A stretch of 38,315 bases of DNA, from assembly GCA_018821305.1 (NCBI GenBank), contig JAHJMN010000087.1, positions 1 through 38,315 of the forward strand, read 5' to 3'. The position numbers and the translations under genes were made by a program. Origin of the DNA: Myxococcota bacterium (GTDB lineage Bacteria > Myxococcota_A > Polyangia > HGW-17). The stretch's first letter is position 1, and each line of letters begins with the position of its first letter. Positions 1,992 to 22,573 of this stretch are shown piece after piece. A model generated the notes under the pieces. The model searched no databases. It was not told where the DNA came from and was given only the letters and a program-made list of their open reading frames with translations.

Positions 1992-2020
1992 TAGTTCATC
2001 ATTTTAATATAGGTTATTCA

Positions 2021-2221
2021 ATGAAATGCTCAAACCATAGTGAAAACAACAAAGTCTGCAATTGCAGTTACCCCGGTTGTCCGCGACATGGGCTCTGCTG
2101 TGAATGTCTCAGTTATCACCGCAGTAAAAATCAACTTCCCGCTTGTTATTTTAATAAAGAACAGGAAGCAACCTGGAACAGATCCATTGAATATTTCATT
2201 GAATGTCAGAGGAAAAAATAA
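2021..2221 (+). CDS. Small Cys-rich protein, DUF6485-like
   Basis: A 66-residue protein with eight cysteines, seven of them in the first half (C3, C13, C15, C20, C26, C27, C29), including the cluster C-x-C-x(4)-C...HGLCCECL followed by Y-H-R-S and PAC-x-F. This pattern fits the DUF6485 family of short putative metal-binding proteins, function unknown. The assignment is from memory of the pattern. There is no signal peptide, so it is likely cytoplasmic. Its TAA stop overlaps the ATG of the next gene by one base (TAATG), implying translational coupling. A strong RBS for its own start is not visible. Confidence 0.7.
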   Translation: MKCSNHSENNKVCNCSYPGCPRHGLCCECLSYHRSKNQLPACYFNKEQEATWNRSIEYFIECQRKK

Positions 2222-2643: not shown

Positions 2644-2682
2644 TTAATGTCCCGAAATTCAGGTTTTGCTAAATTTGAGCAT
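2641..2682 (-). repeat. Decayed type A repeat end (inverted)
   Basis: TAGTTAATGTCCCG (2641-2654) plus the next 28 or so bases align by eye with the inverted type A copy at 27219 (both run ...GAAATTCA..., then ...TTGAGCAT). Beyond about 2682 similarity is lost, and 2683-2792 shows no recognisable feature. It begins exactly on the TAG stop codon of the preceding lipoprotein gene. Confidence 0.6.
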
Positions 2683-2792
2683 ACTTACTATAACTTTGTT
2701 TTTTCGAATTTTCAGAAAAACACTATTTTTAAGTGAAATACTCAAAATGCCTGCTATAAGATATAAATATTGAAGACTGAGTTTCAGTTATC

Positions 2793-2939
2793 TAGTTACT
2801 GTCCTGAAATAAGGGAAATCAAATTTTTCGCCGATTTTTTGCTCAGGACAGTAACCACAAGGTGTTGAAAATATTAATAGTGGCCGGATAGAATTTTTTA
2901 ATAAAATTCTTCGAGAAGCGAATTTCCGGACACGAACTA
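2793..2939 (+). repeat. Type B dispersed repeat, copy 1 (147 bp)
   Basis: Starts TAGTTACTGTCCTG (2793-2806) and ends CGGACACGAACTA (2927-2939). An inner box CAGGACAGTAAC is at 2844-2855. The interior differs from type A but keeps the three-box layout. It contains the hairpin GAATTTT/AAAATTC; the matching hairpin at 32321-32466 reads GGATTTT/AAAATCC, so a base pair has changed on both sides. It ends 17 bases before the ATG at 2957, and the gene's AAGGAT ribosome site begins right after it. Confidence 0.85.
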
Positions 2940-2956: not shown

Positions 2957-3742
2957 ATGAAATATACCTTTTTTTCGTGTATAATACTTATGTTTTCTTT
3001 GATTTCCGGCTGTGATGACGATAGTCCAACAGTTTGTCCGGATAATAACTGCTCAGGACATGGTGAGTGCAAACGCACGTCAATGGGCGATTACTGGTGT
3101 GATTGTGAAGAGGGATATGTTTTCAGGTCCAGTGACTATTCATGCTGGTTTGACGACTATGTTAATAATGATAATTACAAACCTGTTATTTACCTGTACC
3201 CAGTGGAAAAAACTGTAGTTAATGTTGCCTTCACTAATCCTGAGAATGTTTCTTTAACCTATACTTATCCCCAATACAAAGATAACGGATGGACGGTCAC
3301 AGCCTGGCCCGATGGTACGCTCGAATCCGACAGCAGAGAATACTACTCACTATTCTGGGAAGGTCCCACCATTGATAATATTATTTTTTCAACGGGTTTC
3401 AGTGTGAGTTATGACGAAACTATCCCGTTTCTTGAGGATGCACTTTTAAAACTAGGGCTAAATGATTTTGAAGCTCAGGAATTTATCATCTATTGGCTTC
3501 CCATTCTGGGAGAGAGTCCTCATAACCTCATTTACTTTGCGGTAAAAGACTGGATGGATGCAATCCCGCTTACTATAACGCCTGTTCCGGATACGCAAAT
3601 CCGATTTATCATGATTTACAAACCTATGGTTGAACCAATTTCAATACTTCCACAGCAGTTTTTTTCCCCCGAAAGAACAGGTTTCACTCTTGTAGAATGG
3701 GGAGGCCGTAAAGAAAATGGCGAATACAGAGGGCAAAAATGA
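2957..3742 (+). CDS. EGF-like/'KPVIYLYP' lipoprotein, module copy 1
   Basis: A 261-residue lipoprotein. The signal peptide ends LISGC followed by three Asp. Residues about 27-65 are an EGF-like module (CPDNNCSGHGEC... then WCDCEEGY). The remaining 190 residues are a conserved domain that opens KPVIYLYP and has later blocks YYSLFWEG, QEFIIYWLPILGES, PDTQIRFIMIYKP and GFTLVEWGGR. The KPVIYLYP domain is widespread in bacterial envelope proteins, but I know of no assigned function. The paralogue at 17039-17815 is alignable end to end. Asp at +2 after the lipobox Cys would, by the enterobacterial Lol rule, favour inner-membrane retention; whether that rule holds here is unknown. The stop overlaps the next gene's start by four bases (ATGA). 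Confidence 0.85.
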   Translation: MKYTFFSCIILMFSLISGCDDDSPTVCPDNNCSGHGECKRTSMGDYWCDCEEGYVFRSSDYSCWFDDYVNNDNYKPVIYLYPVEKTVVNVAFTNPENVSLTYTYPQYKDNGWTVTAWPDGTLESDSREYYSLFWEGPTIDNIIFSTGFSVSYDETIPFLEDALLKLGLNDFEAQEFIIYWLPILGESPHNLIYFAVKDWMDAIPLTITPVPDTQIRFIMIYKPMVEPISILPQQFFSPERTGFTLVEWGGRKENGEYRGQK

Positions 3743-5517
3743 AAAATTTTTTCTTACTATTATTAATACTCGCTTTGGTTTCGATTATCGCCTGTTCCAA
3801 AGACGAAAGCAAATGCGGAAACGGCATCGTAGATAATAACGAAGAGTGCGACGGTGAAAAATTTGCTCCAATTTATTCTCAGGAATGCACGAAATGGGGT
3901 TACAGTGGTAATTTTTTCACAAATTTGAGAATCGGCTGCAAAAATTGTCATCTTGATTTTACAGTATGTGAGCCCCTTGGTATATGTGGTGACGGGAAAC
4001 TGGGGGAACTTGAGGAGTGTGATGGAGAGCTTTCCGATGGCGCGGCCTGTGTGGATTTCGGTTATTATGGTGGAGGAAAACTGGGCTGTAAATCCAATAA
4101 TTGCACATATGATACATCCTTGTGCGAGCGATGCGGAGATGGCATCCTTCAGCCTGAGGAAGGTGAACAGTGCGATAAAAAGCAGATTGGTGATTACGAG
4201 TGCGCTGACGGTGGTTTATGGGGTACAGCTCCAATGTGTAGTGATAATTGCGAAATTTCCTACGTAAATTGTCAGGATAGAATCTTAATATCTGGGCGAT
4301 ACGCCGTTTTAAGATCAGTTGAACTTGATAATGAAGGCAGAATTATAACTTCAGGATCAATTGGCGGGAATCTGTCGGGTTTTATCAATCAGGATGCACT
4401 GTGCGCGGAGACTGACTGGGAATATTATAGCCCCCTATGTTTTGACTCCTTTGCCTCTATTTATAAAGTTGATGATTCACGTTTTTTAGCTGCTTCTCAG
4501 TGGGGATCCGTCGAACTTGATGGTGCATGGCTAATCAAAAATGCGCCAGTAGGTGAAATTGATATTTTGTCCGCGTATAGCGGATCAGATTATTACGAAG
4601 GTAATCAAGAATTTAATTCAATACACACTCCTATATATCCTGCTTTCTATTCCTTTGAAAGATATGACCTTTCTTTAAACAAACTTTCCTCCATTACAAT
4701 TATTTCAGAAAGCACACTGGATTCTATGCCATTTTTAAAAAGGGATGGTCAGACACTTTTTATAAGTGGTTCTTTTTATCAAAATTTTTTTGAAGCCTTC
4801 GATTTAACAAATGGTGAAAAAATAGTCAATTTTTATACAAACGGTTTTTATACTGATGCTATCCGCTATGATGATAATACAGTTCTTGCAGTACACTATA
4901 ATCCAAGTGTCAGCACAGGTGGATATAAAAGTCTGGAGCTGTTTGACATTTCAAACCCAGAATCTGATCCTGTTGAGATCCATCGTTGTGAAGTACCTGA
5001 TATTTTTTTTATTACCGGTGACTTCATCTCTCCTAAATACGATACTGGACTTAAATCAGAAATTACCATTGATGCCAGTGGCTTGATAACATTATATTGT
5101 CATACGGAGACTGATGAATTTGAGGCATTGCTTATGGATATTGATGGTAATCCCCTTGGCTCATCTCCATATTATGGGATTCCACTGGAATCTGGAGGGA
5201 CAATCCGTTCCATGACAGGATCCAGAACTGAACTGGATACATCTGTTCCAAGTGTACTTGCTGGAAATATAACATTCGATCCGGATGCCAGTTTTATATT
5301 GAGCATCAGGAACAGCCTGGGTGAAATAACAAGATACCGATGGGAATATAATTCAAGCTCAACTGATGTTGGCGGTTATTACATATGGGGAGATTACGCC
5401 TACATATGGGGAAACAGTTGGACCTATTATCCACAGTACGGTTTTATATTCCGCTGGAAACTTCCACCTGACCCATCTCAGACAAAAACCACTGCTGCGA
5501 AGCCGCTTGCTGAGTAA
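3739..5517 (+). CDS. Cys-rich repeat/propeller-like lipoprotein, module copy 1
   Basis: A 592-residue lipoprotein (signal peptide ending SIIAC-S). Residues about 26-178 hold three Cys-rich modules, each starting C-G-[ND]-G and containing E-x-C-D, with intervening G-Y-x-x-G...C...C-x-x-D segments, as in myxobacterial Cys-rich repeat proteins (DUF4215-like). From about residue 180 the chain is beta-rich, with recurrent V-x-L-D-x-x-G-R-I-I-x-S-G and A-S-Q-W-G-S segments resembling SBBP-type beta-propeller repeats. That fold is an inference. The paralogue at 15333-17042 has the same order. It is translated from an ATG overlapping the preceding stop, so the two proteins are probably made together and may interact at the cell surface. 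Function unknown. Confidence 0.83.
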   Translation: MKNFFLLLLILALVSIIACSKDESKCGNGIVDNNEECDGEKFAPIYSQECTKWGYSGNFFTNLRIGCKNCHLDFTVCEPLGICGDGKLGELEECDGELSDGAACVDFGYYGGGKLGCKSNNCTYDTSLCERCGDGILQPEEGEQCDKKQIGDYECADGGLWGTAPMCSDNCEISYVNCQDRILISGRYAVLRSVELDNEGRIITSGSIGGNLSGFINQDALCAETDWEYYSPLCFDSFASIYKVDDSRFLAASQWGSVELDGAWLIKNAPVGEIDILSAYSGSDYYEGNQEFNSIHTPIYPAFYSFERYDLSLNKLSSITIISESTLDSMPFLKRDGQTLFISGSFYQNFFEAFDLTNGEKIVNFYTNGFYTDAIRYDDNTVLAVHYNPSVSTGGYKSLELFDISNPESDPVEIHRCEVPDIFFITGDFISPKYDTGLKSEITIDASGLITLYCHTETDEFEALLMDIDGNPLGSSPYYGIPLESGGTIRSMTGSRTELDTSVPSVLAGNITFDPDASFILSIRNSLGEITRYRWEYNSSSTDVGGYYIWGDYAYIWGNSWTYYPQYGFIFRWKLPPDPSQTKTTAAKPLAE

Positions 5518-5539
5518 TACTGATAGTGACTTAATTTAC

Positions 5540-5847
5540 AGTGATGCCTACGTTAGTTGAGCCAGAGTATTGCAATATAAATTAATATATCTCAGGTAGC
5601 CAGGCAGTCAGTGAAACAGGGTCAGGAGCAGCGGGTGTTTACTTTGAAGGTAAGTGTTTTTGTGGCATCAAGACCGTTTTATTAGTAATAATATGGTGAC
5701 TTGTTTTAAATAATATTTCAGGAACAAGCCCCTGATTTTCCTGTTGCTGCTACTGTTTACCTGAATACCAGAATGTTCTTGCTTTTATTAAATTATTTTG
5801 ATTTTATTAACAATATCAAACAATACGGCACTATCGAGCAGCATTGG
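5540..5847 (+). repeat. Type C element relative, decayed
   Basis: The convergent gap 5518-5872 is largely this repeat. Its 40-base core (5637-5676) is identical to the inverse of 11571-11610 and has two differences from 32579-32618. The right end reads ATCGAGCAGCATTGG (5833-5847), like the right inverted repeat of the intact element at 32470-32774. The left end near 5540 is only weakly alignable, but the implied length (about 308 bp) agrees with the intact copy (305 bp). No terminator with a T-run is visible in the gap. Confidence 0.6.
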
Positions 5848-5872
5848 GTTTAGTAGAAATAACTGTAGGATT

Positions 5873-6871
5873 TTATTCGTAGCCCATTTCTATGAGCCAT
5901 TTTTCCGTATCGAGGGCGGCTTTGCATCCACTTCCCGCGGCGGTTATTGCCTGTTTGTAACGGGGATCCATTACGTCTCCGCAGGCAAAAACACCCGGAA
6001 TATTGGTGTGTGAAGTATTGTCGGAGGTTTTAATAAAGCCAGCCTTATCCAGTTCAACCTGATTTGCGAAAAGCGTTGTATTGGGATCGTGACCGACAGC
6101 TACAAACATTCCCGTAACTGATATTTCTGTAACTTCATCGGTTTTAGTATTTCGAAGCCGAAGGGCGGTCAGGCCGTCTTTGTCCGGTTCGCCAACGAGA
6201 TCGTCTACAACCGAGTTCCAGACAATCTGAACTTTCGGATTTGACAAAGCTCTTTGCTGCATGATTTTTGAAGCACGGAACTCATCCCGGCGGTGAACAA
6301 TATATACTTTTTCCGCATGTTTTGTAAGGAATAGAGCATCTTCTAAAGCACTGTCGCCGCCGCCGATCACTGCTACATGCTGATTACGATAAAAGAAACC
6401 GTCGCAAACTGCACAGGCACTTACTCCGTAACCCTTAAGTTTTGTTTCATTTTCCATGCCCAGATAGCGAGCTGATGCTCCTGTACCTAAAATAACCGCA
6501 CGGGTTTTAATTTTAAGCCCCATATCTGTTGTGAGTTCTTTTACATCGCCATTGAGATTAAAGGATACTATTTCAGAAGCCAGAAAACGCGTCCCAAAGC
6601 GCAGAGCCTGCTGTTTGAGATCATTTATAAGATCGGGGCCTTTTACCGCTTCAGGATATCCCGGGAAATTCTCAACATCCGTGGTTTCCATTAGCTGTCC
6701 ACCACCAGGATAGCCTTCCACTAAAAGCGGAAAAAGATTAGCACGGGAAGCATAAATTGCTGCCGTAAGACCCGCGGGCCCACTTCCAACGATTACAACA
6801 TTTTCCAGTTCCCGGATTTCCACATCAGGCATTTCATCGCCACCACCAAAATTAATTGATATTTCTGTCAT
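5873..6871 (-). CDS. trxB: Thioredoxin reductase
   Basis: A 332-residue FAD/NADPH flavoprotein that reduces thioredoxin. Seen in the sequence: N-terminal FAD motif VGSGPAG (28-34), redox pair CAVC (153-156) followed by DG, NADPH-binding GGGDSALEDA, and the C-terminal ACGDV FAD block. Start set at 6871 because TGGAGA lies 8 bases upstream; an in-frame ATG 45 bases further upstream has no such site and adds non-family sequence. The first 20 or so residues before the Rossmann fold are somewhat longer than usual. It follows the phosphofructokinase gene on the same strand after 111 bases, so co-transcription is possible. No thioredoxin gene is present nearby. Confidence 0.96.
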   Translation of the reverse strand: MTEISINFGGGDEMPDVEIRELENVVIVGSGPAGLTAAIYASRANLFPLLVEGYPGGGQLMETTDVENFPGYPEAVKGPDLINDLKQQALRFGTRFLASEIVSFNLNGDVKELTTDMGLKIKTRAVILGTGASARYLGMENETKLKGYGVSACAVCDGFFYRNQHVAVIGGGDSALEDALFLTKHAEKVYIVHRRDEFRASKIMQQRALSNPKVQIVWNSVVDDLVGEPDKDGLTALRLRNTKTDEVTEISVTGMFVAVGHDPNTTLFANQVELDKAGFIKTSDNTSHTNIPGVFACGDVMDPRYKQAITAAGSGCKAALDTEKWLIEMGYE

Positions 6872-6982
6872 ATTACAATCTCCAGTGTAAAAATATATAG
6901 CTAAAACAGCAATCAATACCAGATTACTGTGATAACCCTTTGCCCATTGTCAAGGGCCAGACATTATGGTCTTATGCTGATA

Positions 6983-8287
6983 TCAGTAAAAAGTTGGTGG
7001 CTGCCCAGTCATCTGCAGAACGCTACGCCATAGATCCTGGTCCGGGTCAATAACTTTCCGTCGGGAAACGGCGTCGGCAAGAGCTACATGAGTAAATGTA
7101 TCATTCCATAGACCTATAACAATGCCAGTACGTCCAGTCATTGCAGCGTGAACTGCATTTTCCCCAAGACGACGACAGAAAATTGCATCCGTAGGCGATG
7201 CTTTTGTTGCTCTGATAATATAACTCGGATCAATATATTTAAGATTGACAGGATCTTTTGTTTTTTTGAAGTGACCTATAATAGAACTGCCAAGATAAGT
7301 ACCGATATCAAGGAGTTTCTGATTTCCTGATGCATCGAACTCTGGTTTTTCACCGGCTAGAATATCCTGCCCTGCCCCTTCCGCAACGACAACCACAGCA
7401 CGATTCTGTTCCTTCAATTTACGATCAATCCAGCTCAGGAGACCTCCGGTGCCTTCAAGTTTGAAAGGAGATTCAGGTATCAAAACAGCATCAACGTTAC
7501 CGTTGGCCAGGGAAGCATGGGCGGCAATGTAACCGGAATGACGCCCCATCAGTTTAACAAGGCCAACACCTCTCGGGGCACCTTCCGCTTCAATGAGAGC
7601 ACTCTGAATAGCTTCCTCAGCTTTTGCCACTGCGGTTTCAAATCCAAAAGTTCTACTGATGAAATCAATATCATTATCAATAGTTTTTGGCACACCAATT
7701 ATTGCTATTTTATAGTTACGTTTGATGGATTCTTCATAAATTGCCTGAGCCCCGCGCAGAGTTCCATCACCGCCAACAGTAAACAACATATTAATATTGA
7801 GTCGTTCCAGAGCATCAAGCATTTCAGCAGGATCCTGCGGCCCACGGGAAGACCCGAGCATTGTACCGCCTTTTATGTCCCAATCCCGAACTGCTTCACT
7901 GGAAAGTTGAATAGTCTCATACCCACAGGAAGGAACTATCCCTGCATAGCCATAACGAAAACCCTGTATACTCCGAACTTTATAACCATGGGAAAGTTCG
8001 TTTACTATGGATTTTACAACATTATTTATTCCAGGACACAAGCCACCACAGGTAACTATTCCTGCCCGGGTTTTTGAAGGGTCAAAATAGATTTTTTCCC
8101 GGGGACCAGCCACTTCAAAAGTTTTAAATTCAGTGGGAATTTCATCCCTGAATACACTATCGACAATTACTTTTGTACCCTCCTCAACATAGTTCGGAAT
8201 GAGATCGTTATTTTCAATACTGAGGCTCAGAGGCGATTTTACGGTACAATCACCAAGTCGAGGTACATTACTGTTTATAGCGGTCAT
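6983..8287 (-). CDS. pfkA: ATP-dependent 6-phosphofructokinase (TP0108/trypanosome-type)
   Basis: A 434-residue phosphofructokinase that phosphorylates fructose 6-phosphate in glycolysis. It is longer than the 320-residue E. coli type and has an N-terminal extension of about 70 residues. Key motifs: GGLCPGINN (81-89), GGDGTLRG (172-179), PKTIDNDIDF (200-209), MGRHSGYIA and IPESPF. At the two positions that separate phosphoryl donors it has Gly in GGDGT (ATP-type) and Lys in PKTIDND, the combination known from ATP-dependent long enzymes such as trypanosomal PFK. PPi-dependent enzymes have GGDD. The start has a clear GGAGG (8293-8297). Confidence 0.93.
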   Translation of the reverse strand: MTAINSNVPRLGDCTVKSPLSLSIENNDLIPNYVEEGTKVIVDSVFRDEIPTEFKTFEVAGPREKIYFDPSKTRAGIVTCGGLCPGINNVVKSIVNELSHGYKVRSIQGFRYGYAGIVPSCGYETIQLSSEAVRDWDIKGGTMLGSSRGPQDPAEMLDALERLNINMLFTVGGDGTLRGAQAIYEESIKRNYKIAIIGVPKTIDNDIDFISRTFGFETAVAKAEEAIQSALIEAEGAPRGVGLVKLMGRHSGYIAAHASLANGNVDAVLIPESPFKLEGTGGLLSWIDRKLKEQNRAVVVVAEGAGQDILAGEKPEFDASGNQKLLDIGTYLGSSIIGHFKKTKDPVNLKYIDPSYIIRATKASPTDAIFCRRLGENAVHAAMTGRTGIVIGLWNDTFTHVALADAVSRRKVIDPDQDLWRSVLQMTGQPPTFY

Positions 8288-8379
8288 TATTTCCTCCAGA
8301 ATAGATCGGTAATATTAAAAGTACTGTGGGCGTATTTAATCATAGAAGGGTGTTTTGGAAAAGGAGATTTTGAGAATTT

Positions 8380-9588
8380 TTAGCCGTCAAGCTCCTCAGG
8401 GTTGGCAGCCTTTGTATATACTTTTTCTTTATTTAACTCACCATCATGAGCATCAAGCCACATTCTTGCCTTACTCTCGATATCTTCGGGAGTATCACCA
8501 GCCATATGCACTGTCATGGTGGGATAAGCAAATTCTACCTTGATTTTATTAAGTTCTTCCATGATTTGAAGCATTAACTCTTCTTGAATATCCAGATATT
8601 CTCCCCATACTGTTGTAGTTGTAAAACAGTAAACCATTATCTTCAGAGCACTATCACCAAAATCCGTAAAATTAACAAGGTAGAAATCATTTCGAATTTT
8701 TGGATGATCTTCTATCAGTTTTTTAATAATTACAACACTGGCCTGCATCATCGCCGGGGTGGACTGATACGTAATACCAACGTTGAAATAAATTCGCCGA
8801 CGATCTCTGCGGTTAAAGTTTCTTATTGGAGTAGTCGCTAAAGTACCGTTTGGTACCTGAACCAGACTCTTGTCAAAAAGCCGTATCTGAGTTGAGCGGA
8901 ACCCAATAAGTTCCACAGTTCCTTCAATATCATTAACTTTAATCCAGTCCCCAATATTAAAAGGTTTGTCTGTGAGAAGCATTATGGAGCCAAAAAAGTT
9001 TGAAAGTGTATCTTTTGCAGCAAGAGCAAAAGCAAGACCACCAAGACCCAAGCCAGCAAGAAGACCACTTGGATTGTACCCCAGTTCCTGTAAAACCATT
9101 ACTCCACCAATAACAATTGCCAGAATACGAAGAATTTGTTCAATAAATGGAACAAGTTTATCATCTAAAAGTGTATCTTTACGGGATGTTACTCTTCGCA
9201 GGACGAAGGAAACAACTTTTATTGCCCGTACGCCGGTCCAGGTTATTATTATTATTGCGCCAATCCGAAAAAGTAGTTTAACAACGTTTTCGAGTCCGGA
9301 ATACCGTTCGAGGGGCAGGATATAAAATGCCCCCAAAATTCCGAAATAAACTACTGTAGCTCTAAGAGGAACCCTGATTACTTCCAGCAACAAATCATCA
9401 ATTTCTGTTTCTGTTTTTTGTGTGAGTTTATTGGCCAGAGACAGAATCCACTCTACAATATACTTTCTCAGAGCCCAGGAAAAAAACAGGATGCATATGC
9501 TTCCAAAAAGGCTTCCGTATGTAAGAAATGTCCCGGGCACCGTTTTATGAAAAAATTCCGTAGTTGCCGTGATAATTGAAGAATACAT
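8380..9588 (-). CDS. MscS-family small-conductance mechanosensitive channel
   Basis: A 402-residue membrane protein. Four or so hydrophobic helices occupy the first 190 residues. The last is the Gly/Ala-rich pore helix (AGLGLGGLAFALAAKDTLSN), followed by the MscS beta domain with the family block KPFNIGDWIK...G-x-V-x-x-I-G-F-R-S-T-x-I-R and VPNG. The C-terminal alpha/beta cytoplasmic domain includes a V-x-x-x-Y-T-F/C-T-T-T-type strand region. It is predicted to release solutes during hypo-osmotic shock from the inner membrane. GAGGA precedes the start. It is 92 bases upstream of the pfkA start on the same strand, so these may share a transcript. It is longer than E. coli MscS (286) because of extra N-terminal helices. 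Confidence 0.93.
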   Translation of the reverse strand: MYSSIITATTEFFHKTVPGTFLTYGSLFGSICILFFSWALRKYIVEWILSLANKLTQKTETEIDDLLLEVIRVPLRATVVYFGILGAFYILPLERYSGLENVVKLLFRIGAIIIITWTGVRAIKVVSFVLRRVTSRKDTLLDDKLVPFIEQILRILAIVIGGVMVLQELGYNPSGLLAGLGLGGLAFALAAKDTLSNFFGSIMLLTDKPFNIGDWIKVNDIEGTVELIGFRSTQIRLFDKSLVQVPNGTLATTPIRNFNRRDRRRIYFNVGITYQSTPAMMQASVVIIKKLIEDHPKIRNDFYLVNFTDFGDSALKIMVYCFTTTTVWGEYLDIQEELMLQIMEELNKIKVEFAYPTMTVHMAGDTPEDIESKARMWLDAHDGELNKEKVYTKAANPEELDG

Positions 9589-9734
9589 TGCACGTTCCTC
9601 AGTTCAGTCTTGAAAATAATAAATAGAATCAATGGTTTTTTTAACCAAATTTTAGGATTCCTGAAAAACTTTTTCATCAACAGGGTATTACAAAAGGTGT
9701 GAAAATTGAACCCTTTTTTTCGAAAGGATGAGAA

Positions 9735-11033
9735 TCAGTGGCCTGCGCGCATCGCCGGCTTTACATTGCGAACGCGGAAGGAGAGGAAGAAGCCCATTAC
9801 TGCGAAGGGGATCAGGAAGGGGATCCAGTATTCCCAGCCTTTAGAGGTAAGTGTTCCAAGGCCGATTCCCTGAATCGCAACACCGAGATAAACAAAACCA
9901 TCAATGATTCCTGTTGCCGTTGCAGTTGCCTGTTTACCGCCAAAATCAGCGGTAGCCGCTCCACTTAAAACACCATGGGTTCCGATAACACCGAAGGCTA
10001 CTACTACTACTACAAAAAACATTATTAATGGTTTGACACTTGTCGGTGCAAATTTCATAACAAAAGCTGCAACAACCAGTGCAACGATAATTACACCGTA
10101 TAAAAGCATGGCAACGGGAGGACGTCTTGAGTTAAAGAGTTTATCTGAAATCCATCCTGCAACCATGGACCCGGAAGCGCCAGCAATGAAAAGTCCAATA
10201 CCAAGCCAGGCTCTTACGGGGCTATCAGCTTGTTTTGCAAAAGCACCAAACCAGTGGAACATGCCATCTCTTAAAACACCTGTGCAAAGTTCAATAAAAG
10301 CAATGGAAATAACAATCGGATGCGTTATAACCTGTTTGATAATCTGCATTGTTGAAAGCTTAACATCACTGTCAAACTGAGTAGCAGTACCCGTTGTGAA
10401 TTCAGGAAATCCACATTCTTCCGGAGTGTCGCGGATCAGCATAATTGTAACAAACATCATGAAAACCAACAAAAAGGATGGAATCAGGAAGTAGAACTGG
10501 GGTTGACCCTTAAAGAACAATCCCATTATGAAAGGAGAAACGGTGTAGGCCAGAAACAAACCGGATGAAATCAGGATGCCGAAAATACCACCGAAAACGC
10601 CACGCTCGGATATATGAAACCAGTTGGAATTGACTTTTACGATGGCAATAGCGGCAAAACTCTGAAAATACATATTGACGCCATATAAAATTGCCATTTT
10701 CATAACAAAATGCTCGGTCCAGTTGGCATAAATAAGCAACCCCATTGCGAGATTGACTACTGCGCTACCTGCAGTGGAAATAATCATCGCTTTTCGTCCA
10801 CCTATTTTATCCGTAAGGGGGCCGTTGAATAAAAAAGATACACCATATACAATAGCTCCGACCATGGTCATGAAACCAAGACCAGCATTGTCCATTAGTC
10901 CGCCTTTAAATTCCTCTTTTGCTGGGATGTAACTGTAACGACCCATATAAAGAGTTGCGTAGGCCATTCCCAGAGGAAACCAGTTCAAAAATCGCCTCAT
11001 ACTGAATGCTTTGCTGTAGTTTAAATTGCTCAT
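9735..11033 (-). CDS. MFS transporter, organophosphate:phosphate antiporter-like
   Basis: A 432-residue, 12-helix major facilitator. The N-terminus WFPLGMAYATLYMGRYS and the loop-2 motif G-P-L-T-D-K-I-G-G-R-K-A resemble the GlpT/UhpT (OPA) group, which exchanges sugar- or glycerol-phosphates for phosphate. The substrate cannot be set from sequence. Start at 11033 (ATG) because CGGAG (11039-11043) is 5 bases upstream; a GTG two codons earlier overlaps that site. The upstream gap contains tandem repeats beginning at 11116. Confidence 0.87.
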   Translation of the reverse strand: MSNLNYSKAFSMRRFLNWFPLGMAYATLYMGRYSYIPAKEEFKGGLMDNAGLGFMTMVGAIVYGVSFLFNGPLTDKIGGRKAMIISTAGSAVVNLAMGLLIYANWTEHFVMKMAILYGVNMYFQSFAAIAIVKVNSNWFHISERGVFGGIFGILISSGLFLAYTVSPFIMGLFFKGQPQFYFLIPSFLLVFMMFVTIMLIRDTPEECGFPEFTTGTATQFDSDVKLSTMQIIKQVITHPIVISIAFIELCTGVLRDGMFHWFGAFAKQADSPVRAWLGIGLFIAGASGSMVAGWISDKLFNSRRPPVAMLLYGVIIVALVVAAFVMKFAPTSVKPLIMFFVVVVVAFGVIGTHGVLSGAATADFGGKQATATATGIIDGFVYLGVAIQGIGLGTLTSKGWEYWIPFLIPFAVMGFFLSFRVRNVKPAMRAGH

Positions 11034-11115
11034 TTTCACTCCGTAATTTATTAAAAAGTCTAAAAATCCCGCGTAACCTTAATACATAAAACGGGTTAAA
11101 AACAAGAAAATTATT

Positions 11116-11272
11116 TAGTCACTGTCCTGTAATACGATCTTTTCAATTTTACACCAAATTCTTACACAGGACATTAAGAATGAAGGTCTTGAAATTATTA
11201 TAGTGTTCTGAATAGCATGTTTTCTTAAACATGCTCAATTTTGATAAAAATTGAATTTCAGGACACGAACTA
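11116..11272 (+). repeat. Type A dispersed repeat, copy 2 (157 bp)
   Basis: TAGTCACTGTCCTG (11116-11129) to CAGGACACGAACTA (11259-11272). The length is identical to copy 1 and there are only about a dozen base differences by eye. The inner box CAGGACATTAAG and both hairpins are intact; the loop changes TCCT to TCTT and GACA to GATA leave the stems unchanged. It is followed after two bases by a type B copy in the same orientation. Confidence 0.88.
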
Positions 11273-11274
11273 AA

Positions 11275-11485
11275 TAGTCACTGTCCTGAAATACCGAAAA
11301 TCAAATTTTTCGCCTGATTTTTGCTCAGGACTCTCACTGTTTTCGATGAAAACAGTTGTCGTCTTTGACGATTTCCAGCGGAAATACGTTTTAGACAGTA
11401 ACCGCAAGGTGTTGAAAATATTACTAGTGGCCTGTTAGGATTTTTAATTAAATCCTTCGCGAAGCGAATTTCAGGACACGAACTA
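11275..11485 (+). repeat. Type B dispersed repeat, copy 2, with about 65-bp insertion
   Basis: Starts TAGTCACTGTCCTG (11275-11288) and ends CAGGACACGAACTA (11472-11485). Relative to the other type B copies, about 65 extra bases (11332-11396) interrupt the inner box between CAGGAC and AGTAACC. The insert contains the hairpin CTGTTTTC-GAT-GAAAACAG and a second short inverted repeat GTCGTC/GACGAT. The right half carries GGATTT/AAATCC and the palindrome CTTCGCGAAG. Confidence 0.85.
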
Positions 11486-11486
11486 A

Positions 11487-11650
11487 GCAGGAACAGGATT
11501 ATCAGGGACTCATTCCTGAAGAATTTCTTTAAAATGAGTCGTAACGGAAATGCCGATCCTGAATTGAAAGCGGTCTTGATGCCACAAAAACACTTACCTT
11601 CAAAGTAAACACCCCTGTCCCCTGTTTACCTTTTTGCTGACTACCTGACT
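11487..11650 (-). repeat. Type C element relative, inverted partial copy
   Basis: 11571-11610 is the exact inverse of the 40-base core at 5637-5676. The left part contains CCTGAAGAATTTCTTTAAA (also at 32281-32299) inside a hairpin GACTCATT (11507-11514)/AATGAGTC (11533-11540). Intact ends like those at 32470-32774 are not visible. From 11651 to 11736 I see nothing recognisable. Confidence 0.55.
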
Positions 11651-11736
11651 TACTGAAATAGATTTCGGGAATATGTACGGGGTAAATTTTGTTGTAAATT
11701 TATACCTGAACTCATTTGATTAAATAATCTTTTTGA

Positions 11737-11749
11737 AGTATCAGATACT
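11737..11749. promoter_or_regulatory. 13-bp perfect palindrome before an unknown gene
   Basis: AGTATC-A-GATACT is a perfect 6+1+6 palindrome ending 17 bases before the proposed start at 11767. It could be an operator or part of the leader. No clear promoter hexamers were assigned around it, so the regulatory role is only a guess. Confidence 0.3.
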
Positions 11750-11766
11750 ACAGACCCTGAATAGTC

Positions 11767-12999
11767 TTGTTTCAAAAGACATTTTACTCAATCGAAGGTA
11801 TAGCATTGGTACTATTATTTGCAATAATTTCAATATTTTCGACAAAATTAACCGGTCCTGAAAGACCAAGAAAGATCTTTACAGTAGCAAAGTATGGCGG
11901 AGGCATGAATATTATTATGATTCCGCTCTATTCCGGGGGATATGTTCAGTACACAAAAGATAACAAAGTTGAAGGTAATCTTTTCTGCAGTTCTAAACAC
12001 CTGTTTTATACATCAAAAGATACAATCTACCGTCAGAAAATATCCACTCCAGGAAAGGAAACAATCCTTGGAAAACTGCCTTCTCATCTGGCTTTGACAC
12101 ACTCAGCGGATTTGCGACATTTTATAAGGATATCCGCCGACGAAAATTGGATTTCCTGGCCGGGATCAGTAAATATAAATATAAAAAGTTTAAAAAATTC
12201 TAACTCTTATAAAATCACTCCCCCTTCAGGCTATCGGATTATTCATCCCTCGGCTTTCCGCCCGGGATCAGATGAATTATTTTATATGGTTCACAACTCT
12301 TCGAAGGGAGAGCTGGAACTTCGGTTCAGAGAAATTTCAAAAGACACCGATAATTTTGCCGTTAGCCCCCTTGGCACACAGGTGACTTCAGTTAATTCAT
12401 TTCAGGAATTCTTTTCCCCCGCTGGAGATATGTTTGCAATAAATATTGATGCCGTTTCAAAAAAAGATAAAAAGCTCCGAAGATATTTTATAATTCTGAA
12501 TCGCAACAGTAAGAGTGTTCTCGCTACAAACACTAAATGGAATTTTGAGCAATTTCATGGTTTTACACCAACAGGTGAACTTACTTTTTCCGGCAAAGTA
12601 AACGGTGTTCATGGTTTTTACAGGCTTTATATGGGGAAAAATCCTCATGTTAAACTAGTGGAACCTCTGCGCGGATCTTCAGTTTATGGGTATTTTCCCG
12701 GGCGATTGTCCGTTCTTTTTGCTTCTCCATTTAAAAAGTGCAGTCGTCCACGGTTGGAATCCATAACAATGTGGGGGAAACATACTCGACTTTTAAAATG
12801 GAGTCACTGGAATGAAATAGTCACTCTGGACAGACACAGGGTGTGGGGGCTTTTCCGCGGAGGAACTGTGTGTTCAAACAAAACTGCTCCCCTGTATCTC
12901 ATGCGTACAGACGGCTCACTTTTGCTTCGAGAGCTCCCCAAAGTACGCTTCTGGCCACTTCGAATGGCTCAGAATTCCGATACAACTATCTGCGATTGA
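11767..12999 (+). CDS. Membrane-anchored protein of unknown function
   Basis: About 410 residues. The proposed TTG start gives an N-terminal hydrophobic segment (about residues 9-26) and then a long exported-type, beta-rich domain without recognised motifs. The alternation of short strands with W/G/N/S turns (for example 'FYMVHNSSKGELELRF', 'NGVHGFYRLYMG') would fit a beta-propeller fold, but this is an inference. The first ATG is 47 codons further in and would delete the membrane segment, so TTG is preferred even though no strong ribosome site is seen. Not recognised as a known family. It is followed after 55 bases by a lipoprotein gene on the same strand, suggesting a small envelope operon. 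Confidence 0.65.
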   Translation: MFQKTFYSIEGIALVLLFAIISIFSTKLTGPERPRKIFTVAKYGGGMNIIMIPLYSGGYVQYTKDNKVEGNLFCSSKHLFYTSKDTIYRQKISTPGKETILGKLPSHLALTHSADLRHFIRISADENWISWPGSVNINIKSLKNSNSYKITPPSGYRIIHPSAFRPGSDELFYMVHNSSKGELELRFREISKDTDNFAVSPLGTQVTSVNSFQEFFSPAGDMFAINIDAVSKKDKKLRRYFIILNRNSKSVLATNTKWNFEQFHGFTPTGELTFSGKVNGVHGFYRLYMGKNPHVKLVEPLRGSSVYGYFPGRLSVLFASPFKKCSRPRLESITMWGKHTRLLKWSHWNEIVTLDRHRVWGLFRGGTVCSNKTAPLYLMRTDGSLLLRELPKVRFWPLRMAQNSDTTICD

Positions 13000-13054
13000 T
13001 TTTTCTTTTAAAAAAATTGGCATCTGATAAAAATGTGTTTCAAAGGAGAATTAT

Positions 13055-13927
13055 ATGAAAAAGCACCTGATTTTATTAACTTTAACTTGTGCATCTCTGA
13101 TTTCCTGCAAAACCAGTACTGGTGATGACTCTCCGAGGCTTCCCGCTTCGAAGCGCGGAGAATCAATTCGACCGGAAATCGAACCGGTTAACGTCATTTC
13201 TTTCAAAAGGGCTGGGGGCAATAATGAAATGGTCGACTTTGTTGTTTCGAATTTGCTGGCCATGAAGGACATAAAACTTGGAAAATGTGGCAGTTTTCTT
13301 TCTGGAATTGAATCTGCTGTTTTCATTTCCACGGGTCTTGAGTTTGAGGCGGATAAGGTTCAGGATGATGGATATCTTGGAGTCACAGGCATCAAAGCAA
13401 TCGATTTTATCAATTGTTTGGCAAAGGATGGCTCCCTTTCTTCCTCCGGTTCTATCGGAGGCTTTTCCATCTGGAGAGATAAGTCAAAGGACAAGAGTCT
13501 TATTATATCCTCAACGGATCGCTTGGCTGTAATCAGTAAAAATCTTGAAATGAAAGTAGCTCCAGGAAAGGGGATGCTTGGCAAAATACAATTTGAAAAG
13601 TTTCTTTCAGATCATAACGTTTCAATTACTTTAAAAAATTTAAAACATCAAACTATTACTCAGGTTACCGGATACGCCGATTTCAAAAATAAACTTACCG
13701 CTGTTATTGAATTAGGTTTTAAATCAAAAACTGAGGTTGATAAGGTTGTGAAACAATGGGCAGATTTTATTAAAAACTCAAAATTAGTCCCCATTCCAGG
13801 ATTAAAAGAAATAGTTGAGAGTGTATCCCTTACTCATTCCGGGGAATCAATTGTTTTTAAATCAGAATTAGCACTGAAAGACATGAAAAACATCATTTCC
13901 ATTATGGCGTCCTTGGGGAGCAAATAA
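13055..13927 (+). CDS. Lipoprotein of unknown function
   Basis: A 290-residue lipoprotein. The signal peptide ends SLISC (Cys about residue 18), and AAGGAG lies before the ATG. The mature part has two similar-looking halves rich in alternating hydrophobic strands, with a few cysteines (K-C-G at about 75 and N-C-L at about 118). It resembles in style the surface lipoproteins common in myxobacteria-like genomes (short hydrophobic strand, polar loop, 'I/V-x-G' repeats), but I do not recognise a family. It probably shares a transcript with the membrane-anchored protein upstream and is convergent with the gene ending at 13953. Confidence 0.8.
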   Translation: MKKHLILLTLTCASLISCKTSTGDDSPRLPASKRGESIRPEIEPVNVISFKRAGGNNEMVDFVVSNLLAMKDIKLGKCGSFLSGIESAVFISTGLEFEADKVQDDGYLGVTGIKAIDFINCLAKDGSLSSSGSIGGFSIWRDKSKDKSLIISSTDRLAVISKNLEMKVAPGKGMLGKIQFEKFLSDHNVSITLKNLKHQTITQVTGYADFKNKLTAVIELGFKSKTEVDKVVKQWADFIKNSKLVPIPGLKEIVESVSLTHSGESIVFKSELALKDMKNIISIMASLGSK

Positions 13928-13952
13928 ACTCGTCTGTAAATTATAGTTCGTC

Positions 13953-14609
13953 CTACATTTTATCAAATTTTATACTTCTAAGCATTTCTTTAACAATCCT
14001 TGATTTTGAGTCATGGGGAGTACGACCAGGAGGTACGCGTTCTAAATAGGAAAACAAAATTAAATATTTTCTATCAAACTTATGATAACAAAGAATTTCA
14101 TCAATATTAAAATCATGATAAATACCTGTGAAACCTCTAACACCGCTGTCCGTTACTGTCGCACTTATATATATACAGTCTGTTCCACGAAACTTTATAG
14201 TTTTACTTCTCATTCGCATGTCACTGTATCGTTCTGCCAATCTGTACTCTGATAAATGCTCATTTACCCGCTGTTTAAGAAACTTTTCGGGATCTTTACT
14301 ATAATGTTTTTTCTCCATTATTTTTGAAAATGCCATAAAAGTATGCGATATGGCAACGGTTTCCCTGACAAGAACCATAGCCTTGTCCTTCTTGCCTGCT
14401 ATACGCCAACCACTTTCCTGTGGTGGTAAAAAACTGAATCCAAACATTTTGATTCTTTCATTTGTATCAGTTATTTCAGGAAATTTATTAAAATTGACCC
14501 CTGATCTATTTATTGGAACGCAATTACTCGAAAACAACAAAGTTAATACTGCAAATATCACGGTAATCCATTTTGAATAACTGGAATTTTGGTGTGTTTC
14601 TTTTGTCAC
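13953..14609 (-). CDS. Probable lipoprotein of unknown function
   Basis: A 218-residue protein. Start set at the GTG at 14609 because GGAGG (14615-14619) is 5 bases upstream; a TTG at 14621 overlaps that site. The N-terminus has a polar stretch, a hydrophobic segment (about 17-30) and FSSNC, a weak lipobox. The body contains IKMFGFSFLPPQESGW, an A-M-V-L-V-R-E-T block and R-x-F-T-G-I-Y-H-D-F, compatible with an alpha/beta secreted domain. Family not recognised. It lies 87 bases downstream of the DTW gene on the same strand, so it may be the last gene of the 17815-13953 unit. Confidence 0.72.
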   Translation of the reverse strand: MTKETHQNSSYSKWITVIFAVLTLLFSSNCVPINRSGVNFNKFPEITDTNERIKMFGFSFLPPQESGWRIAGKKDKAMVLVRETVAISHTFMAFSKIMEKKHYSKDPEKFLKQRVNEHLSEYRLAERYSDMRMRSKTIKFRGTDCIYISATVTDSGVRGFTGIYHDFNIDEILCYHKFDRKYLILFSYLERVPPGRTPHDSKSRIVKEMLRSIKFDKM

Positions 14610-14696
14610 TTTTTCCTCCAATAACTATCTTTTTTCATGACTGGACTTTGACATACTGGTATAGTAACAATAAAATTTCAACATTAAAAAAAATTT

Positions 14697-15320
14697 TTAT
14701 ACCACGGGGGTAAAGTTGTGATCTCTGGTGCTTACGTTGTTTCGTGATGCGTGGATGGCATTCATTGCTGTTTCAAACTGAGCCATCATGTGACTATAGA
14801 CTTTCTCACCTTCGAGGATTCCGAGAGCGCAAGCGACGGCTTCGTAGGTGCATAGTCCGTTTTCCCGTCCCTGACGTCTTAAAAAATACCGGCTTGGACC
14901 TCGTGGTGTAATTGATACAGCCCGAAGTGTGCTTAAAATCGGGTCTTTTCGATACATTTTCTTCGCCTGATTCCAGCTTCCATCGGGAATAATCAGGTGA
15001 ACCGGTTTATGAAAGACCATATTTTCCAGAGGAATTGCATGGTCAGCAGGAAACAACACAATATTTTCGAAATCTTCCGCCAGAAATGTTTCTGAGTTTT
15101 CAATTATGCCCAATGAATTGCGAACAAACAGTCGGGCATCTGAAAGGGTCTGTTTCAGGAGATGGGCAGTGTTTGAAGTCAAAAAAACTTCACTGTAGTG
15201 AAGAACTGCAGTGATTTTTGTGCGGTTAAAAGTCGTTTGCAGTGCATGACAGTAGCAGTGCATGCGGTTTAAAAGACAATCAGGACATCTGGTTTCTTCC
15301 GTAAGTCTTTTTCGTCCCAT
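14697..15320 (-). CDS. DTW-domain tRNA-uridine aminocarboxypropyltransferase
   Basis: A 207-residue cytoplasmic enzyme of the DTW family, which transfers the 3-amino-3-carboxypropyl group of S-adenosylmethionine to a tRNA uridine (TapT/YfiP type, acp3U). The N-terminal metal site is C12-x2-C15-x6-C22-x-C24; the name-giving D-[TS]-W block is PDGSWNQAKKM with DGSW at 113-116; then come T-P-R-G-P-S-R-Y and a C-T-Y-E-A helix. ATG at 15320 is preferred to a GTG three codons upstream for spacing from GAGAAG. It starts 12 bases after the stop of the preceding lipoprotein gene, so it is in the same operon although the functions appear unrelated. Confidence 0.88.
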   Translation of the reverse strand: MGRKRLTEETRCPDCLLNRMHCYCHALQTTFNRTKITAVLHYSEVFLTSNTAHLLKQTLSDARLFVRNSLGIIENSETFLAEDFENIVLFPADHAIPLENMVFHKPVHLIIPDGSWNQAKKMYRKDPILSTLRAVSITPRGPSRYFLRRQGRENGLCTYEAVACALGILEGEKVYSHMMAQFETAMNAIHASRNNVSTRDHNFTPVV

Positions 15321-15332
15321 TAAAATCACTTC

Positions 15333-17042
15333 TCACAGATTCAGGCGAATCACTTTACCGTACATAAAATCGAAACCATTGCCCCCAAATCCTCCAATGA
15401 ATAAATAACCACTATGATAAAGTACTGATGTAACCTCAATATTATCAAAGTAATGATTTCCAACGGTTCCGTCGGGGCGAAAGTGAATTATAACAGTCCC
15501 GGGTGTCGAATATATTGAGTAAACTATTGCACTTCCATTTGATTTCAAAGAGATAAACTTGTAAAACTGGGCAACTGTTGGCGGTTCAAGATAATATTGC
15601 GGAAATTCCGGATATTTAACTTGTGATGTCACAGTTCCATACTCGTCCAGATCTTTTATAACCAAAAGACCATCTGAAAGGTCTGTCCCGATTATCCTGA
15701 CTGTTTTTCTATCATTTTCAGATATATTAGCGTAATTATTATAACTACCAAAAGCATCTCCTACATTTTCAGAGTGAATTTCCTGTTTCTGCCCATTTGT
15801 AATATTTACAAGTTCGTAATTTCTTAAATTCCTTGTTCCCTTCTTTTCGACAATCAAATAGTTGCTATTAATCAGTCCATAATCAGTAAGAATTTCTCCA
15901 TCATTCCAGAGAAACTGATTCTGCAGAGTTTCAGAGGAGATAGAAGTCAATTGAAAAAACGGTTTAATATAGTTGGAAGTATATATTGACAGCAGACGAT
16001 CTTCATCCAATCGTTTTAAAGTATTATTATTCAGAAATCCTTCGGGCATGAAGGCCTTTTGTACAGCAAAATCACCATTAAAAGTCACAAGTTGAGTGGT
16101 CCCGGATGTAAGTTCAAATGAATTATCAAAATGGCATTCATAAGAAAAATCATCTGGGGCGCGAACATTCAGATTGCCAGAAATATTAAAGAATGCGGGA
16201 AAATTGCTGATTTTACCCTGAATAATACTGCTTGTTTCGTGTTTTATGCTGCCCCATTGATTTGATTTTATAATTTCACCACTGCTGTTTATCTCCGCTG
16301 CAAAGGCATCAAGGCAGTAATAACAACGTGATTGTTCGCAACTGTCATATATTCGCTGGTATATATCAAATTCCACACAGTCGGGATCTACATTGGGGTG
16401 TCCATCAAACTCACCTCCCGTCTGACCGGAAATGATGATGTTTCCCGAAGCAGAAAGTCCAAGGGAAAGAATTTTTTCATGACGACCAAAACTGTAGACT
16501 GCCGTTCCACAAGGGGTAAAATCATGGCTTTTGCAATCGGCACTGCAGGCTGGATCCTGACCGAAATCCAGTTCCGGTGGACAATCCTCAGTAACGACAT
16601 CAGAATCACAAACTTCCCCTTGTTCCGCCTGAATAATACCGTCTCCACAACGGGCGCAATTATTCAAATCATAGGTGCAGTCATCGTTGCAGGAGAGAAA
16701 GCCGCTGTAATGACCCGTCGCAACACAATCCTCATGCCGAAATGCATCCCCGTCGCAATCCTCATTTTCATTTAAAACGCCATCACCGCACTGCCCCATT
16801 CCGAGACAGGGAGTAAAATCGAGACGACAGTCTTTGCAACTTATATCCGCATTCTTGTAATATCCGTAATCTTCACAATGTCTTGTAAATATATGAGGAA
16901 GAATAAGAACTGGAGATTTTTCACAATCTTCGCCATTATCAAGTTTTCCATTACCACAAAGCGATCCTGAGTCATTTTTGTTTTCACTGCATGAAACAAA
17001 TAAAGCAAATATGACCATACTGAAATAAATTATATTTTTCAC
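15333..17042 (-). CDS. Cys-rich repeat/propeller-like lipoprotein, module copy 2
   Basis: A 569-residue lipoprotein (signal peptide ending LFVSC-S). It is the paralogue of the protein at 3739-5517: the same three N-terminal Cys-rich modules (LCGNGKLDNGEDC, QCGDGVLNENEDCD, RCGDGIIQAEQGEVCD) and the same following beta-rich region with LSASGNIIISGQTGG and SNQWGS. The D-A-F-A-A-E-I-x-x-x-G and Q-W-G spacing resembles SBBP beta-propeller repeats. Similarity fades in the C-terminal half but the overall length is kept. The start overlaps the preceding stop by four bases. The Ser at +2 after the lipobox Cys contrasts with Asp in the partner. Function unknown. Confidence 0.83.
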   Translation of the reverse strand: MKNIIYFSMVIFALFVSCSENKNDSGSLCGNGKLDNGEDCEKSPVLILPHIFTRHCEDYGYYKNADISCKDCRLDFTPCLGMGQCGDGVLNENEDCDGDAFRHEDCVATGHYSGFLSCNDDCTYDLNNCARCGDGIIQAEQGEVCDSDVVTEDCPPELDFGQDPACSADCKSHDFTPCGTAVYSFGRHEKILSLGLSASGNIIISGQTGGEFDGHPNVDPDCVEFDIYQRIYDSCEQSRCYYCLDAFAAEINSSGEIIKSNQWGSIKHETSSIIQGKISNFPAFFNISGNLNVRAPDDFSYECHFDNSFELTSGTTQLVTFNGDFAVQKAFMPEGFLNNNTLKRLDEDRLLSIYTSNYIKPFFQLTSISSETLQNQFLWNDGEILTDYGLINSNYLIVEKKGTRNLRNYELVNITNGQKQEIHSENVGDAFGSYNNYANISENDRKTVRIIGTDLSDGLLVIKDLDEYGTVTSQVKYPEFPQYYLEPPTVAQFYKFISLKSNGSAIVYSIYSTPGTVIIHFRPDGTVGNHYFDNIEVTSVLYHSGYLFIGGFGGNGFDFMYGKVIRLNL

Positions 17043-17815
17043 TTTGCCACTCCGGTGTATTCTCCCGATTCAAGCCGACCGCCCCATTCCACAAGGGTGA
17101 ATCCCTTTCTTTCGGGTGCTGATAAAACCTGAGTTTCGATTTCTGTATCTTTTTCTGCTGGCTTATAGATCATCAGAAATCTAATCTGCGTATCCGGAAG
17201 CGGAGTAACTTCAAGAGGAACTTCGGAAACCCAGGAATCCGTTGCAAAATGTATGATATTCCAGGTACTTTCAGCAAGAATAGGGAGCCAGTAAATAATA
17301 AATTCCTGACTTTCGCGATAATTCAGACCTAGAATTTCGAGTTTCTCTTCAAAAAATGTAATGAGTCGATCCCGATGAACCGAAAAACCTTTATTAAAAG
17401 AAATGCTGTCTTTTACAGGACCTTCCCAATAGAGACTGTAGTAGCAGCGGTCAATAGCCAGGTCACATAATTTTCCGTCAGGATAAGCTCGCACTGACCA
17501 TCCATCGGGTCCGTATAAAGGGTAACTCAGAGAAACCGTGTTTGGATTTGTGAACTTTACGCGGACATCTGTTTCTGCTTCCGGATATAAATAAATAACG
17601 GGTTTATCATTGCAACCAAAATTTTCAATACAGGAATATGGAACACTTGCGTTATGATAACCTTCATCGCACAGACAGTATTCTAAACCTTCACTTGTAA
17701 TCTGGCAGGTTCCATGACCGGAACAGTTTTCACCTGGACAGATCCTTTCAACTTTGTCTTCATCGAACACATCGCAGCCGGAAAGTGCAAAAATTAAAAT
17801 AATTAAAAACCGCAT
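17039..17815 (-). CDS. EGF-like/'KPVIYLYP' lipoprotein, module copy 2
   Basis: A 258-residue lipoprotein. ATG at 17815 is chosen because AAGGTG is correctly spaced and the protein then begins directly with a signal peptide ending FALSGC-D. An ATG 24 bases upstream adds a charged tail before it. The EGF-like module is CPGENCSGHGTC...YCLCDEGY. The KPVIYLYP domain follows with YYSLYWEG, QEFIIYWLPILAES, PDTQIRFLMIYKP and GFTLVEWGGR, all shared with the copy at 2957-3742. It is the first gene of the minus-strand unit that continues through the Cys-rich lipoprotein and the DTW gene. The conserved EFIIYWLP/QIRFLMIYKP blocks are the best seed for a search. Confidence 0.86.
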   Translation of the reverse strand: MRFLIILIFALSGCDVFDEDKVERICPGENCSGHGTCQITSEGLEYCLCDEGYHNASVPYSCIENFGCNDKPVIYLYPEAETDVRVKFTNPNTVSLSYPLYGPDGWSVRAYPDGKLCDLAIDRCYYSLYWEGPVKDSISFNKGFSVHRDRLITFFEEKLEILGLNYRESQEFIIYWLPILAESTWNIIHFATDSWVSEVPLEVTPLPDTQIRFLMIYKPAEKDTEIETQVLSAPERKGFTLVEWGGRLESGEYTGVAK

Positions 17816-17888
17816 ACATGCACCTTTTCTTTCCAGCATGACTTTAGCACGGTTAAAACAACTTGCAAATCAGTTTCAGGATTTCTGT

Positions 17889-18680
17889 TTATAAATTGAA
17901 GCGGAAGGTGAAGTCAGCGAAGGGGATTATATGAAACTGCTTTCCGAAGGGATACGTGCCAAACACCATTTTGTATCCGGCAACAATGCCATATCGTCCT
18001 TTTTTGAATAAAAACCTCAGAGCCCCCTTGTGTTCAATATTAATATAAGAAGGATATGAGGGAAGAAAAAAGTAATCAATATCTATGAGATAAGTTATCC
18101 ACTCATTGATGCTCCCCTGAATATCAATGCCGACCCTTGCATACCAGTTATCTTCATACCAGTGAGCAGTTCTCGAGTAAACAAGAGGCATATCAACGGT
18201 GGCAAATCTACTTCCGCCAGATGTTAAAGCATGGTTTAAATCCCCAGTCCCGCTTACTATGAACTTTTTATTAAACTTGTACGTTACAGACGCTTCATGA
18301 AAATGAGAAAGAACAAATGGAGCCTTCATATCCGCCGGATAAATACCGCCGGTACCTTCCCGGGCGAGTAGATTCAGTAAAAGAGTGGGAATTCCCATCC
18401 CGTGTCTGGAAGAGAAGGCAAGATTATTCGATTTAAACCACTGTTTTTTCACATATCCCTGAGGATAGATGAAAAAAAGCAGGGGGTGAGTTCCAACTTC
18501 GAGAGTATCGGTAATTCCATACGCTGTATTCTGAAAAACTCCCGTCTCCAGCGTTTTGCGCGGCAGAACATAGCCGGTATCCGAAGTCCAGACATTCTGA
18601 GCATAACTTTCAGAAACATAACTTATAAGCACAGTAAAACTAACGAATATGTATAATATTGATTTAAAATATATTTTCAT
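17889..18680 (-). CDS. Predicted outer-membrane beta-barrel protein
   Basis: A 263-residue exported protein. A signal peptide ends SESYA-Q (cleavage after about residue 27). The mature chain has alternating hydrophobic/polar strands with aromatic residues, a G-x-x-L-x-T-G pattern near the start (RKTLETGVFQNTAYGITDTLEVG) and a last strand ending F-T-F-R-F-N-L, which fits a small outer-membrane barrel whose C-terminal strand feeds the BAM machinery. No named family was recognised. Its ATG overlaps the stop of the EEP-family lipoprotein (TAATG), so the two are translationally coupled. Confidence 0.7.
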   Translation of the reverse strand: MKIYFKSILYIFVSFTVLISYVSESYAQNVWTSDTGYVLPRKTLETGVFQNTAYGITDTLEVGTHPLLFFIYPQGYVKKQWFKSNNLAFSSRHGMGIPTLLLNLLAREGTGGIYPADMKAPFVLSHFHEASVTYKFNKKFIVSGTGDLNHALTSGGSRFATVDMPLVYSRTAHWYEDNWYARVGIDIQGSINEWITYLIDIDYFFLPSYPSYINIEHKGALRFLFKKGRYGIVAGYKMVFGTYPFGKQFHIIPFADFTFRFNL

Positions 18681-22487: not shown

Positions 22488-22573
22488 TCAGACCTCTTTC
22501 GGAGTAATACAATTGTGTTGAATTTTCGGAATATTAAGTAATTTGACACTCGCCATAATTTAGTTTTGATCTT

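Follow-up and report, generated by a model that had tools for sequence, protein, structure and literature searches.

Two loci in the window, by which we mean the whole stretch of 38,315 nucleotides that was analysed, encode the same pair of predicted lipoproteins, referred to here as A (about 260 aa) and B (about 570-590 aa). The gene order A-B and the 4-bp overlap between the two genes recur at both loci (Table 1), as the initial annotation had it, and the relationship is confirmed by pairwise comparisons, in which A1 and A2 are 55% identical (E 4e-91) and B1 and B2 share 35% identity over their N-terminal ~280 residues. The overlap, which had been read as ATGA in both copies, has this sequence in the first copy only; in the second one it is GTGA, although its length is 4 bp in both. 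The open reading frame of A2 opens at 17839, and the signal peptide begins at the ATG at 17815. Behind the lipobox of the A proteins there is an EGF-like module, which in A1 matches the Pfam EGF-like domain PF00008 (E 4.9e-8, 33.5 bits vs a cut-off of 21.5) and in A2 falls just under the cut-off of EGF_2 (21.0 vs 22.1), followed by a core domain of ~180 residues extending from KPVIYLYP to VEWGGR.

Table 1. Positions of the A-B gene pairs and of the genes that flank the second pair (window coordinates, unless another contig is indicated).
Feature	Position	Strand	Description
A1	2957..3742	+	lipoprotein: lipobox ISGC|DDD, EGF-like module residues 27-55, KPVIYLYP...VEWGG core residues 75-251
A1 core domain, KPVIYLYP to C-terminus	3179..3739	+	the widespread domain without a name
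B1	3739..5517	+	lipoprotein with lipobox IAC|SKD; SBBP-like beta-propeller blades follow on three Cys-rich repeats (CGDG...ECD)
A1/B1 stop/start overlap, ATGA	3739..3742	+	4 bp
A2	17039..17815	-	lipoprotein: SGC|DVF, EGF-like, core domain
B2	15333..17042	-	lipoprotein: VSC|SEN, GTG start, propeller-like region behind the Cys-rich repeats
A2/B2 stop/start overlap, GTGA	17039..17042	-	4 bp; B2 start = GTG
Two genes upstream of A2	17889..19765	-	1-bp mutual overlap; endonuclease/exonuclease/phosphatase-family lipoprotein and a 263-aa protein without a family
DTW-domain gene	14697..15329	-	tRNA modification; 3 bp past B2
Third pair, contig C67 (locus L004 5066-7533)	A 6790-7533, B 5066-6793	-	4-bp overlap
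Fourth pair, contig C44 (locus L016 429-2914)	A 429-1199, B 1196-2914	+	4-bp overlap

The two genes upstream of A2 probably share one transcript with A2-B2, and the DTW-domain gene that follows B2 probably represents operon read-through and lies outside the module. Scans for promoters and terminators at the pair gave no clear signal above the shuffled expectation. Elsewhere in the window, positions 21164-23431 encode two neighbouring ferredoxin-fused MinD/NifH-like ATPases together with a NifX-like small protein, an arrangement that is frequent in anaerobes. Positions 35697-38003 encode another Cys-rich lipoprotein, whose middle part resembles by eye a glycerophosphodiesterase/phospholipase-type motif (HNCYNGP...ELDIATDG...YHGD), while the Pfam search at 1e-3 identified only DUF4215 in it.

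A profile search with A revealed four full-length A genes in the 5.2-Mb assembly of the same genome, which form one group in the tree (support 94/92) and all of which (4/4) run with a 4-bp overlap into a B gene. Such an overlap alone is unremarkable, because overlaps of 1 or 4 bp were found in 24 of 188 same-strand neighbours in the sampled regions of this genome; four overlaps out of four with a single partner family are, however, not due to chance. Two further B genes are found without an adjacent A, though the genome has A: on contig C180 (locus L040, 5972-9432) they form a B-B tandem, again overlapping by 4 bp. Their position in the B tree, together with the B gene of the C44 pair, suggests that the tandem originated from a copy of the pair that lost A. 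The contigs of the additional pairs encode other repeat-bearing proteins as well. On C44, a lipoprotein (L016 9104-11722) has, behind a series of many Cys-rich CGDG repeats, three SRCR domains of the scavenger-receptor type (Pfam E 1.8e-53), which are known best from animals. On C67, the product of one gene (L004 2-2311) combines a Cys motif at the N-terminus with a tandem repeat that stays in frame, YGLSDESASRDRAAG, and the next gene (L004 2680-3366) has a shorter form of this repeat.

Among 290 genomes of the class and 379 genomes of the phylum, B was seen only within its own family. Full-length matches to its C-terminal part were obtained in 3 of the 290 (this genome, G007 and G063, all from one family), a fourth match, in G025, being weak and covering 51 residues; at E <= 1e-10 there were matches in 2 of the 379 (this genome and G007). 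G007 and G063, which belong to other genera of the family, possess one adjoining A-B pair each, with a 1-bp overlap and an 11-bp gap, respectively. Lone A genes are present in the family too, two of them in G007 and two in G070. The former (L091 5497-7586, contig C199) are divergently oriented, 260 bp apart, and encode two EGF-like modules each. Signal peptides with a lipobox Cys were detected by a motif scan in every A and B of all six pairs, all of which are thereby predicted lipoproteins.

With four copies here, one copy in each of two other genera, and 6 of the 8 B genes of the family located directly behind A, the conserved two-gene unit envisaged in the initial annotation is upheld; in the opposite direction, an A gene is followed by B in 6 cases out of 10. 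Frequent occurrence of each family without the other, which was to speak against the pair, is seen for A, which is very often encoded without B, but not for B, as the class and phylum scans found no genome with B and without A. The pairs have been retained in the three genera although their sequences have diverged strongly and their gene surroundings differ. The congener G025 lacks the pair. Both G025 and G007 have a syntenic counterpart of the block of genes for Pfk, an MscS-type channel and an MFS transporter beside pair 1, but the pair is missing from that place in both genomes, which argues that the A-B cassette is accessory. In the lineage under study it is expanded.

The A core did not match any model above the cut-off in Pfam, NCBIfam or PHROGs, and a profile search against the PDB identified no relative. 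No paper retrieved by the literature search mentions the KPVIYLYP motif, and shorter motifs led to unrelated text only. The AlphaFold2 model of A1, calculated with 63 homologues from other genomes, has a pLDDT of mostly 86-99 over residues 71-250 and shows the core as a compact domain. A Foldseek comparison of this model gave no significant PDB match (best E 0.29); the search covered the PDB and a viral library, and the absence of a known fold is limited to these. The core is 47-56% identical between distant phyla, and conservation inside the phylum as well as in distant phyla is seen at the positions P76, Y79, Y81, P82, W112, E135, E172, W180, R216, R240, E247 and W248. The pattern of invariant Glu, Arg and Trp residues suggests a single conserved ligand-binding or catalytic site, but these residues may also be structural.

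In genomes outside the family, an A core with no B is a common finding. The full-length A profile was matched in 18 of 290 class genomes and the core profile in 36 of 379 phylum genomes, a few genomes of the own family being included in either count, and at least 558 loci, usually without B, were confirmed in a scan of named genomes. The best 80 of these at least 558 loci come mostly from Clostridia and also from Bacteroidota, with single records labelled Alphaproteobacteria, Saccharibacteria and Wolfebacteria. In nearly all cases the core forms the C-terminal end of an exported protein, which in many instances is a lipoprotein, and its partner domains vary (carboxypeptidase-regulatory-like, copper amine oxidase N-terminal, LRR_5), which indicates that it is a portable module. 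Beyond ECF-sigma-like genes and local synteny, no conserved neighbour was found in the 80 named loci. In 14 of the 80 loci (L128-L207), genes resembling ECF sigma factors are found close to the one for the A core. A phage origin of the core was considered and rejected: no relative in IMG/VR was confirmed, a single phage record was found, unannotated, and there was no PHROG. As an outcome of the analysis, this extracytoplasmic domain, which has no name but is deeply conserved and very widespread, is more interesting than the pair itself.

In B, three Cys-rich repeats are visible in all four copies of the genome's pairs. B1 scores under the curated cut-offs of both relevant models, with 18.1 vs 20.8 bits in one stretch for TIGR02232, the myxococcal Cys-rich disulfide repeat, and 15.1 vs 27 for DUF4215 (PF13948) in the Pfam search. 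The C-terminal half gives a profile match to successive blades of CylK (E 3.4e-7), which amounts to homology over several blades to a solved SBBP-type propeller. The Pfam SBBP model (PF06739) did not exceed its cut-off in the B C-terminus, where the best E was 0.01, in one of eight members. An AlphaFold2 model of B, made from a two-row alignment of the window copies, has a pLDDT of 34 and many short strands, with no reliable fold. The propeller assignment is good for the first blades and is extrapolated to the remaining ones. Comparison between pairs gives 22-30% identity for the C-terminal half of B vs 49-68% for the A cores, i.e. B diverges fast and A is conserved, although the faster divergence of B may reflect relaxed constraint and not selection. 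Support in the A and B trees is weak, too low for comparing their congruence.

Our favoured explanation, which we put forward tentatively and rate at somewhat less than an even chance, is that A-B is a lineage-specific, multi-copy operon for two lipid-anchored exported proteins that act together on or outside the outer membrane. Co-transcription of A and B is deduced from the overlap of their genes. A would supply the conserved part, namely an EGF-like stalk bearing the KPVIYLYP/VEWGG extracytoplasmic domain, with one site under strong constraint. The variable part would come from B, as a stiff stalk rich in disulfides that carries at its end a beta-propeller of the SBBP type; scaffolds of this kind often bind partners or polymers. 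A cell with several copies, in which A is conserved and B has strongly diverged, could then recognise several external ligands. The starting point of this explanation is what was observed of lipoboxes, domains, linkage, copy number, distribution and difference in divergence; the surface location, the physical association of A with B and the recognition of ligands would be its additions. It is weakened by the fact that A genes mostly come without a B gene (more than 550 loci, and lone A genes even in G007 and G070), as well as by the existence of the B-B tandem without an adjacent A.

The main rival is that A and B are two independent lipoproteins that share a transcript: they would be co-transcribed and exported but act separately, the overlap would be ordinary operon packing, and the unit would have been copied without physical partnership. 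We consider this also possible, if not quite an even bet. It agrees with the frequency of 1- or 4-bp overlaps in this genome, with the fact that A works without B in most lineages, with the B-B tandem, and with the position of copy 2 inside a longer run of apparently unrelated genes. However, it does not account well for the presence of B next to every A of this genome, for the retention of pairs in three genera, or for the failure to find a genome with B and without A.

According to another explanation, the A core would be an extracellular enzyme not yet characterised, with polymers of the cell wall or of plants as possible substrates, and B would be its accessory propeller that binds the substrate. 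The invariance across phyla of E135, E172, R216, R240 and E247 together with aromatic residues is compatible with a catalytic site, and many homologues come from fibre-degrading gut Clostridia. One homologue is a fusion annotated as a BspA-type leucine-rich-repeat protein, with the A core at its C-terminus, encoded by the conjugative plasmid pRUMAL02 of Ruminococcus albus 7 (NC_014825.1 65307-67424, L232). There is also a weak CBM26-like match over the beta-rich half of the core (E 0.012, below the cut-off). The core is, however, unrelated to any known enzyme by sequence or by fold, the conserved residues may be structural as mentioned above, and no conserved pathway adjoins it in Clostridia, so that we regard an enzymatic role as unlikely.

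The remaining reading, a trans-envelope pair with A (+2 Asp) in the inner membrane and B (+2 Ser) in the outer one, bridging the periplasm, comes from the initial annotation, which applied the Lol rule to the residues behind the lipobox Cys. These residues are as described in A1, A2, B1 and B2, but the asymmetry is not kept in the other copies: for A/B in the six pairs they are D/S, D/S, D/G, E/F, D/D (G007) and G/S (G063), i.e. the partners in G007 both have Asp and those in G063 both lack it. The proportion of +2 Asp in the A proteins of the family (8 of 10) is higher than in the lipoproteins sampled from the genome (P about 0.005, for copies that are related to one another), and a LolA homologue is present. 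On the other hand, Asp is the commonest +2 residue in that sample (25/71, 35%, vs 18% for Ser; regions around Cys-rich genes are over-represented in it), LolB was looked for in this genome and not found, and in Clostridia, which mostly possess a single membrane, the A core is found as a lone lipoprotein too. Moreover, sorting signals of lipoproteins differ between species, and the inner-membrane signal reported for M. xanthus is +2 Lys (PMC3222651), a rule that may apply by analogy to this genome, whose gene content probably points to Myxococcota. A +2 Asp is also the signature of Klebsiella pullulanase, a surface lipoprotein secreted by the type II system (PMC3222651), and a GspD secretin is encoded in this genome. 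Placement of the partners in different membranes is therefore very improbable. Thus, the observation that started this analysis has been confirmed and extended, and its interpretation was half right, the unit being real and the membrane argument wrong.

A broader formulation, which is possible but which we consider doubtful, centres on the A core: it would be an extracytoplasmic domain still without a name, with a fold absent from the PDB and one conserved active or binding site, present in Clostridia, Bacteroidota, the phylum studied here, candidate phyla and a giant virus, and paired in this lineage with a diversifying propeller lipoprotein as a multi-copy recognition system. Taken alone, the pair adds another expanded surface-lipoprotein cassette to a lineage rich in Cys-rich proteins. 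The wider point is the core, with hundreds of loci, including those in gut Clostridia, a confident predicted fold unmatched in the PDB and no family name. Its deep conservation without an assigned function marks a basic extracellular job that apparently nobody has described; in the A-B operon it has a natural partner through which it can be studied.

Several known systems resemble parts of the pair. The blade motif of B (D..GN..L.G.TGGNL.G...(D)AF..KID..G.....Q.GS) fits successive blades of the SBBP (PF06739) propeller of CylK, whose solved structure is seven-bladed (PMC8916777), but B is a lipoprotein with a Cys-rich stalk, in which only the first blade or blades are recognisable and the rest has strongly diverged. 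The CGDG...EECDG repeats at its N-terminus are like the myxococcal disulfide repeat (TIGR02232/DUF4215) and recur in many other proteins of this genome (116 profile matches), although B1 itself scores below the curated thresholds. On the side of A, one of the BspA-family leucine-rich-repeat surface proteins of Ruminococcus bears the core at its C-terminus with 42.5% identity, whereas the window protein has neither leucine-rich repeats nor a Clostridial context, and LRR_5 was present in only 1 of 32 homologues scanned. Finally, the only significant match to the predicted fold of A in the viral library is an uncharacterised protein of Terrestrivirus (A0A3G4ZNZ8; E 5.2e-11, probability 1.00, TMq 0.56), which comes from a giant virus and is 18% identical in sequence.
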